From NCBI RefSeq assembly GCF_900114655.1, contig NZ_FOTT01000012.1:1-64000 (forward strand): a stretch of DNA of 64,000 nt, read 5' to 3'. Origin of the DNA: Candidatus Frackibacter sp. WG13 (GTDB taxonomy: Bacteria > Bacillota > Halanaerobiia > Halobacteroidales > Acetohalobiaceae). Made by a program: the position numbers and the translations under genes. This document shows positions 5,183-6,851 of the stretch, piece by piece; positions within the stretch are counted from its first letter, which is position 1, and each line of letters starts with the position of its first letter. Below the pieces are notes generated by a model that saw only the letters and a list, made by a program, of their open reading frames with translations, did no database searches and was not told where the DNA came from.

Positions 5183-5737
5183 ATGAAGATAGGAGTGATG
5201 AGCGATACTCACGGTAGTTTATCAGCTTGGGAAGAAGCAACTGAATATTTAAAGGACACAGATATTATTTTGCATGCTGGTGATATACTGTATCACGGAG
5301 CAAGAAATCCATTACCATCAGGATATGATACAGCAGGATTAGTAAAAGCTTTAAATGAGTTTGATGGTGATTTGGTAGCAGTAAAAGGAAATGTAGATGC
5401 TTTAGTGGATGATTGGGTTCTGCCTTATGCTTTATCAGAATACTCAGTGGTGGTTGATAATGATTTAAGGATAGTTATCTATCATGGTTACCAACATGAA
5501 ACTGAGAAAGAAAGAGTTGAGTTTGCAAAGAGATTTGGAGCTGATGTTTTAGTTTTTGGTCATACACATATACCACTAATTAAGGAGAGAGACGGAGTTA
5601 TCCTATTAAACCCCGGTAGTACTTCTTTACCAAAGCAGGAACCAGCTCAACCAACTATAGCTGCAATAGAAGATAACAAAATTGAAATTATAGATTTAGG
5701 TAATAAGGAATTAATAGATGAATTGGAATTAAAATAA
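5183..5737 (+). CDS. yfcE: YfcE/MJ0936-type metallophosphodiesterase
   Basis: A 184-residue calcineurin-like phosphoesterase. The metal ligands are in the expected order: SDTHGS (7-12), HAGDI (31-35), KGNVD (73-77, the GN(H/V)D block), YHGY and GHTH (about 126-129), then LNPGSTSLPK. YfcE-type proteins hydrolyse phosphodiesters in vitro and their physiological substrate is unsettled. GAAGGAG precedes the ATG. It is a single gene, ending at a terminator shared with the converging selenoprotein gene. Confidence 0.9.
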   Translation: MKIGVMSDTHGSLSAWEEATEYLKDTDIILHAGDILYHGARNPLPSGYDTAGLVKALNEFDGDLVAVKGNVDALVDDWVLPYALSEYSVVVDNDLRIVIYHGYQHETEKERVEFAKRFGADVLVFGHTHIPLIKERDGVILLNPGSTSLPKQEPAQPTIAAIEDNKIEIIDLGNKELIDELELK

Positions 5738-5791
5738 GATTACTCTTTATAAGTAGTGAATATAATAACAAGGTGGCCTTAGAGAGGTAAA

Positions 5792-5814
5792 AAAGCCACT
5801 AGATTAGTGGCTTT
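5792..5814. terminator. Bidirectional terminator between converging genes
   Basis: A 10-bp perfect stem AAAGCCACTA/TAGTGGCTTT with a short loop. A-rich sequence on one side and T-rich on the other lets it serve both yfcE (plus) and the selenoprotein gene (minus), which converge here. Confidence 0.85.
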
Positions 5815-5818
5815 AAAG

Positions 5819-6130
5819 TTAAGCGGTGTAAGGAGAGATTCCTTGTAGAGATAAAGATTTAAACCAAAGGAAGCCGCTAGTCCCTATAATTATTGGTTTA
5901 TCTTTTAGTTGTAATCGTAATGAATTATGGATGTGTATGTTATAACCATCAATAGCATGAGACTGATAATTAGACATAATATCTGGCTTACCTACATTCA
6001 CGGTAGGTTTATAAGTCGTACCGCATCAGCCGCCACCTACTTTTAAAGTCTTAATAGTAATCTCTTTTACACTTGCCTTTTTGGCTAGAAGTTCTTTAGC
6101 ACTTTGTGTAATCTTAATTTCTTTTGACAT
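5819..6130 (-). CDS. HesB-like selenoprotein (CC/Se motif family), in-frame UGA read as Sec
   Basis: A 103-residue protein if the TGA at 6026-6028 is read as selenocysteine. Codons run from ATG at 6130 (AAAGGTGAGG upstream on the minus strand) to TAA at 5819 with only that internal stop. Residue 35 is the Sec, in GGG-U-CGTTYKP. The N-terminal half (MSKEIKITQSAKELLAKK) and the U-C pair match the HesB/IscA-like '(seleno)protein' family, where homologues carry Cys-Cys or Sec-Cys. A SECIS-like hairpin starts just after the UGA. The function is unknown; an HesB-like fold and the vicinal Sec-Cys suggest redox or metal binding. An ordinary gene caller would report only the part after the UGA. It is divergent from the nitroreductase gene. 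Confidence 0.85.
5987..6028 (-). promoter_or_regulatory. Bacterial SECIS element (candidate)
   Basis: Downstream of the UGA on the minus strand, ACCUAC pairs with GUAGGU around a 7-nt loop CGUGAAU that contains GU. A lower CUU/AAG stem is separated by a bulge. The loop starts 23 nt after the UGA. Known bacterial SECIS hairpins place a G/U-containing apical loop roughly 16-37 nt from the UGA, so position and shape fit. SelB binding is inferred. Confidence 0.7.
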
Positions 6131-6248
6131 AGACCTCACCTTTCTTTAGATAATAAGATTAGTTTCTTATACTATATTTATATATTATAATTTCTTGATT
6201 AATGTTAGTATTCCTTTATTTCATTAATAATATTAGGAGGTAGATAGA

Positions 6249-6851
6249 ATGAAAGTTAAAGAAGCAATTAAAAAGAGACGGAGTATTAGGGGTTTTAAAG
6301 ATGAGAAAGTAAGTCAAGAAGAGGTTAATCAAATTTTAGAAGCAGCAAGATTAGCACCTTCAGGAACTAATATTCAACCTTGGCGTTTTGTTGTTATTGA
6401 ATCGCAAAAGATGAGAGATGAATTAAAAGACTGCACGCTTGATTTTGTTGTTGAGGCGCCAGTAGTGATAGCTTGTTGTATTGATAAGACTTCAATTCAA
6501 AAGAGGAAGAGAAGAATTGTAGAATTACATAAATCAGGGGCTTTCAAAGGAACACAGCTAGAAAAGATGGATGCTTCAAAATATAAAGGTAGAAAGATGG
6601 ATGAGGCAGAAATTAAGACTTACCTGCAGTTAAATTGTGCTATTGCAATTGAAAATATGGTCTTACAGGCTACAAGCTTAGGCTTAGGGAGCTGTTGGAT
6701 TATGATGTTTAATAAGAAGAAAGTTAGTGAGCTGTTGGAATTGAAGGATAATTTAGAAGTTATGACTTTGTTACCAATAGGGTATCCAGAAGAAGTACCG
6801 CAGCAAAGACCTCGTTTGTCTTTAGATGAAATAGTTTTTGATAGAATATAG
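6249..6851 (+). CDS. Nitroreductase-family FMN oxidoreductase
   Basis: A 200-residue nitroreductase fold. FMN-binding pieces are KKRRSIRGFK near residue 8-17, APSGTNIQPW (about 36-45) and the C-terminal LGSCWIMMF...LLPIGYPEE. Family members reduce nitro compounds, quinones or flavins with NAD(P)H; the substrate cannot be predicted. TTAGGAGGT precedes the ATG. It is divergent from the selenoprotein gene, sharing a 118-nt promoter region. Confidence 0.88.
   Translation: MKVKEAIKKRRSIRGFKDEKVSQEEVNQILEAARLAPSGTNIQPWRFVVIESQKMRDELKDCTLDFVVEAPVVIACCIDKTSIQKRKRRIVELHKSGAFKGTQLEKMDASKYKGRKMDEAEIKTYLQLNCAIAIENMVLQATSLGLGSCWIMMFNKKKVSELLELKDNLEVMTLLPIGYPEEVPQQRPRLSLDEIVFDRI

Follow-up and report, generated by a model that had tools for sequence, protein, structure and literature searches.

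Is the TGA that interrupts a minus-strand reading frame at positions 5819 to 6130 of our window (the whole 64,000-nucleotide stretch of DNA analyzed here, from Candidatus Frackibacter sp. WG13) a true stop or a selenocysteine (Sec) codon and, in the latter case, what might the protein do? The evidence set out below makes it nearly certain that the frame is a selenoprotein gene of the CC/Se motif family (NF041239), a judgment that concerns the identity of the gene and excludes its biochemical role. The selenoprotein reading proposed by the initial annotation is thus supported, and none of the three refutation tests that it set, all of which we ran, spoke against it.

The reading frame and its flanks

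Translation bore out the 103-residue minus-strand frame described earlier. It comprises 103 codons followed by TAA, and its sole internal stop is the TGA at 6028-6026, which lies within the motif GGG-U-CG and corresponds to residue 35 of the conceptual protein MSKEIKITQSAKELLAKKASVKEITIKTLKVGGGUCGTTYKPTVNVGKPDIMSNYQSHAIDGYNIHIHNSLRLQLKDKPIIIGTSGFLWFKSLSLQGISPYTA. A Shine-Dalgarno-like sequence, AAAGGTGAGG (6134-6143, minus strand), ends 3 nt before the ATG at 6130. On the other side, the stop codon is followed by an intrinsic terminator (5789-5814, minus strand) made of a hairpin at 5792-5814 with a 10-bp stem (−12.4 kcal/mol, z −5.0) and a T-run. A pattern scan did not pick up this terminator, probably because the stem uses part of the T-run. 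The gene stands alone between a divergent upstream gene of the nitroreductase family (6249-6851, plus strand), an arrangement also kept in the relative G004, and a convergent downstream gene (5183-5737, plus strand), which by eye resembles a YfcE-type phosphoesterase and bounds the transcription unit.

That open reading frame callers would cut this gene was also correctly anticipated, but the loss is greater than the 34 residues first given. Indeed, a mechanical finder reports a 60-amino-acid piece at 5819-6001 that starts at the GTG at 6001, and 43 N-terminal residues would therefore be lost. Comparison with G004, which belongs to the same family but to another genus, yielded a dN/dS of 0.26 for the part upstream of the UGA and of 0.15 for the part downstream, with synonymous sites near saturation; these values indicate purifying selection on both flanks of the codon.

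Family assignment

The window protein matches the NCBIfam model NF041239, "CC/Se motif family (seleno)protein," with 54.6 bits (cut-off, 40), its residues 4 to 97 aligning to positions 2 to 90 of the 91 in the model. It shares with this family the Sec/Cys column, the size, and a near full-length profile match. Published inventories of prokaryotic selenoproteins (PMC9312934; PMC13188914) already carry it under the name "hypothetical protein predicted in Moorella thermoacetica," so that as a family it is known. The review gives its motif as CxxU with one Sec, whereas the window member carries U-C.

The proposed HesB-like (CC/Se) assignment held for its CC/Se half only. The window protein gave no match to TIGR01911 (HesB_rel_seleno) at an E-value limit of 10, and it reads UCG where the classical HesB-like proteins of TIGR01911 have UxGP. 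What it shares with them is a Sec at the first A-type cysteine position, within a fold that is predicted for the window protein; the link to HesB and IscA is thus at the level of the fold. The match to the Pfam family PF01521 (E 0.06) is only a hint. Elsewhere in the same genome lies another UGA gene, which is of IscA/HesB type (C1:51751-52023) and has the motif GUGGPN and a hairpin of −7.8 kcal/mol; it scores under the TIGR01911 cut-off. The window gene is thus a real addition to a selenoprotein family that is already on record, and an ordinary one.

Selenocysteine machinery and the UGA/Cys column

The initial annotation implied that selA, selB, selC and selD should be present, as required for a bacterial selenoprotein gene, and all four were found in the genome. 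On contig C29, selA (625 bits) and selB (398 bits) cluster with a tRNA-Sec bearing the anticodon UCA. Both selD (C19:7617-8537) and the glycine reductase gene grdA (C11:840-1280) contain one in-frame TGA each and are therefore probable selenoproteins themselves. The genome also encodes a Cys-Cys paralogue of the window protein without an internal stop (C18:222430-222735).

NF041239 has matches in 89 of the 398 genomes of the phylum. About 140 matches were inspected, and nearly all have UGA or Cys at the Sec column, with UGA in about 100 homologues; the motifs formed by this column and its neighbors are U-C, U-A, U-G, C-U, U-U, and C-C. Neither UGA nor Cys occupies that column in L094, L107, L134, L136, and L148, which are among the most distant matches. 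Every one of 57 aligned sequences has Sec or Cys in column 35. The homologue alignment had been set beforehand as a test of the proposal, and in it the frame is kept across a column that holds UGA or Cys. The UGA forms, moreover, follow the machinery: selA is present in 74 of the 77 genomes with a UGA form versus 182 of the 321 other genomes (Fisher p = 6e-13; counts transcribed by hand). Of the three UGA-form genomes without selA, two are drafts with a completeness of 90% and 92%; the remaining one is 99% complete but has only a 51-residue partial match. Two genomes of the same order (G011 and G012) have the Cys form only and no selA. In-frame TAA and TAG codons in two homologues of genome G390 were considered as other recoded stops and rejected, as they lie at the N-terminal edge, off the Sec column. 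A scan of public genomes with the single window protein found nothing, probably because peptide patterns drawn from one sequence are too strict.

The searches also brought up a subfamily in which two in-frame UGAs stand side by side, mostly in the motif [HR]G-U-U-[NTH] (L051-L061, L150-L159, and L166). It comprises at least 11 loci from several families, in genomes that are selA positive where checked, and most members have a conserved hairpin about 21 nt past the second UGA. Its scores fall around or under the NF041239 cut-off, and the UU motif is absent from the portion of the 2026 family table covered here.

The SECIS hairpin

The hairpin reported 3′ of the UGA is present, but not at the distance first given: its stem begins at nt 18 after the UGA and its apical loop at nt 24. 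The structure occupies 5990-6008 on the minus strand (nt 18 to 36 after the UGA) and consists of a 6-bp stem (ACCUAC paired with GUAGGU) closed by the 7-nt loop CGUGAAU at nt 24 to 30. The UGA-to-loop distance is 23 nt, and GU occupies loop positions 2 and 3. The bacterial SECIS model quoted in PMC13188914 has a 3- to 9-nt loop with G in the first two positions, 16 to 37 nt after the UGA, on a stem of 4 to 16 bp, with an energy of at most −7.5 kcal/mol. Loop, spacing, and stem of the window hairpin all fall within the geometry so quoted. Against the threshold quoted there, the local hairpin reaches −5.4 to −5.7 kcal/mol and the 51-nt region −8.0.

By energy alone, then, the window hairpin is unremarkable. 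Some other family members have equally weak hairpins, the fold of the 51 to 54 nt around the window hairpin is not better than shuffles, and a competing hairpin appears in the longest fold of the region. Four of the six stem pairs are already dictated by the protein sequence P-T-V-x-V-G, and an Rfam search of the region returned chance matches only. Across the family, Sec and Cys members cannot be told apart by their best energy under the SECIS model (medians of −9.0 and −9.1, respectively), but they can by the fixed register.

Five inner pairs around a 7-nt loop at nt 24 to 30 are found in 64 of 92 single-UGA members versus 1 of 28 Cys members, and other registers are far behind, except for the same stem scored with a 9-nt loop. 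The window hairpin sits at this family-wide register. Of the 92 single-UGA members, 73 have GU in the loop, and in 66 the codon over it is GTG. Both GTG and ACC are little used in the window, where they make up 9% of the codons for Val and 6% of those for Thr, respectively, and the six-pair, in-register stem with a CGTG loop arises in 0.12% of synonymous recodings. With near-identical sequences removed, although relatedness remains, pairing of the stem across the family is 76%, compared with 65% in shuffles (maximum, 69%). Double-sided changes at paired positions number 52 cells versus 20 in shuffles (maximum, 36), subject to the same relatedness. When the 3′ arm is slid out of register, pairing falls to 25 to 41%. 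The protein itself follows suit: the eighth and eleventh residues past the Sec are mostly coupled as Ala-Ala or Thr-Val, matching the demand of the stem.

The evidence for the window SECIS is thus its shared register, covariation, and rare codons. Together, the conservation of the codon against Cys in dozens of homologues, the selection on both sides, and the in-register hairpin show that the UGA exceeds chance. As the sequence suggests, codon 35 would be decoded by SelB and tRNA-Sec, under the direction of the SECIS hairpin with its CGUG loop 24 to 30 nt downstream of the UGA.

Predicted fold

The AlphaFold model of the window protein has a pLDDT of 89 and is predicted to adopt the A-type (IscA/SufA/HesB) beta fold. 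Foldseek matched it to SufA and IscA with a probability of 1.00, and A-type carriers make up most of its top PDB matches, with these two in the lead (TM scores of 0.52 to 0.62 for the top three and 0.42 to 0.62 in the top ten). No sequence relative came up when solved structures were searched by profile. An overall weak profile comparison (probability 15%, E 0.0017) aligns GUCGTTY to GCSGMAY of IscA, which would place Sec35 at C35 of IscA. The IscA sequence used was verified with PDB 1s98 and 1r94. IscA and SufA (PF01521) have three cluster-ligand cysteines, the last two in a C-terminal Cys-Gly-Cys; by contrast, this pair is present neither in the window protein nor in the family alignment.

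Gene neighborhoods and possible role

Among 77 neighbors of UGA forms, 9 match thioredoxin and 5 match pyridine nucleotide-disulfide oxidoreductases. Because the set was hand-picked and close relatives are among its members, these figures are leads and carry no statistical weight. Some Cys forms keep different company, adjoining ACR3 arsenite exporter genes in the window genome (G000), G059, G087, G012, and G011 (in the last, acr3 was recognized by sequence similarity to the others). The Cys paralogues directly beside ACR3 genes are L018, which is the window genome's own, and also L016, L017, L181, and L193. The window gene has neither a thioredoxin nor an ars neighbor.

In the mechanism that we favor, Sec35 would replace the first cluster-ligand cysteine of IscA, with Cys36 next to it, and the pair most likely serves as a site of thiol redox chemistry or of soft-metal(loid) binding that thioredoxin keeps up, rather than as a classical Fe-S carrier site. 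Judging from neighborhood and fold, we hold it about evenly balanced whether Sec35-Cys36 is a redox or soft-metal-binding site of some kind. Of these roles, a redox or soft-metal(loid) site linked to thioredoxin ranks as the likeliest, ahead of an Fe-S carrier. A broader proposal is tentative and on the whole unlikely: that CC/Se proteins are distinct redox or soft-metal(loid) carriers of A-type fold, with a Cys branch in ACR3 operons and a Sec branch alongside thioredoxin, and that the SECIS stem imprints the Ala-Ala or Thr-Val choices.

Another reading is a metalloid chaperone like ArsD, in which As(III) is bound by vicinal Cys pairs: the vicinal Cys-Cys or Sec-Cys pair of this family might carry As(III), Hg, or a Se species and deliver it to a pump or to thioredoxin. 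The position of the window genome's Cys paralogue (C18:222430-222735), between a gene for an ArsA-type ATPase and acr3, argues for such a role, as do the Cys forms beside acr3 in G011, G012, G059, and G087. However, the window gene lacks an ars neighbor, UGA forms more often adjoin thioredoxin genes, and Ala or Gly replaces the second Cys in many of them, which leaves this reading possible but doubtful. It is rather improbable that the protein is a true A-type Fe-S carrier with Sec as a cluster ligand: the fold and the Sec position agree with C35 of IscA, but the other two IscA ligands are missing from the family alignment and Fe-S assembly genes are not among the frequent neighbors listed. 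Least of all would the frame be a decayed gene, its TGA a real nonsense mutation in a Cys-coding pseudogene; one mutation suffices to turn TGC or TGT into a stop and an intact CC paralogue is kept elsewhere in the genome, but about 100 homologues with UGA at this very column, the complete Sec system, dN/dS below 1 on both sides, an intact start, ribosome-binding site, and terminator, and a SECIS in the family register make this extremely improbable, and we reject it since the conserved UGA and the constraint contradict it.

Concluding remarks

As a selenoprotein gene, the locus gives a selenium-using bacterium one more selenoprotein with good support and exemplifies how callers ignorant of UGA recoding truncate a gene. 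The comparative work outweighs the single gene. The family gains a predicted fold, a SECIS whose register is fixed and conserved, and two recurrent neighborhoods, thioredoxin for the Sec forms and ACR3 arsenite export for the Cys forms. With these in hand, the role of the CC/Se family becomes testable.
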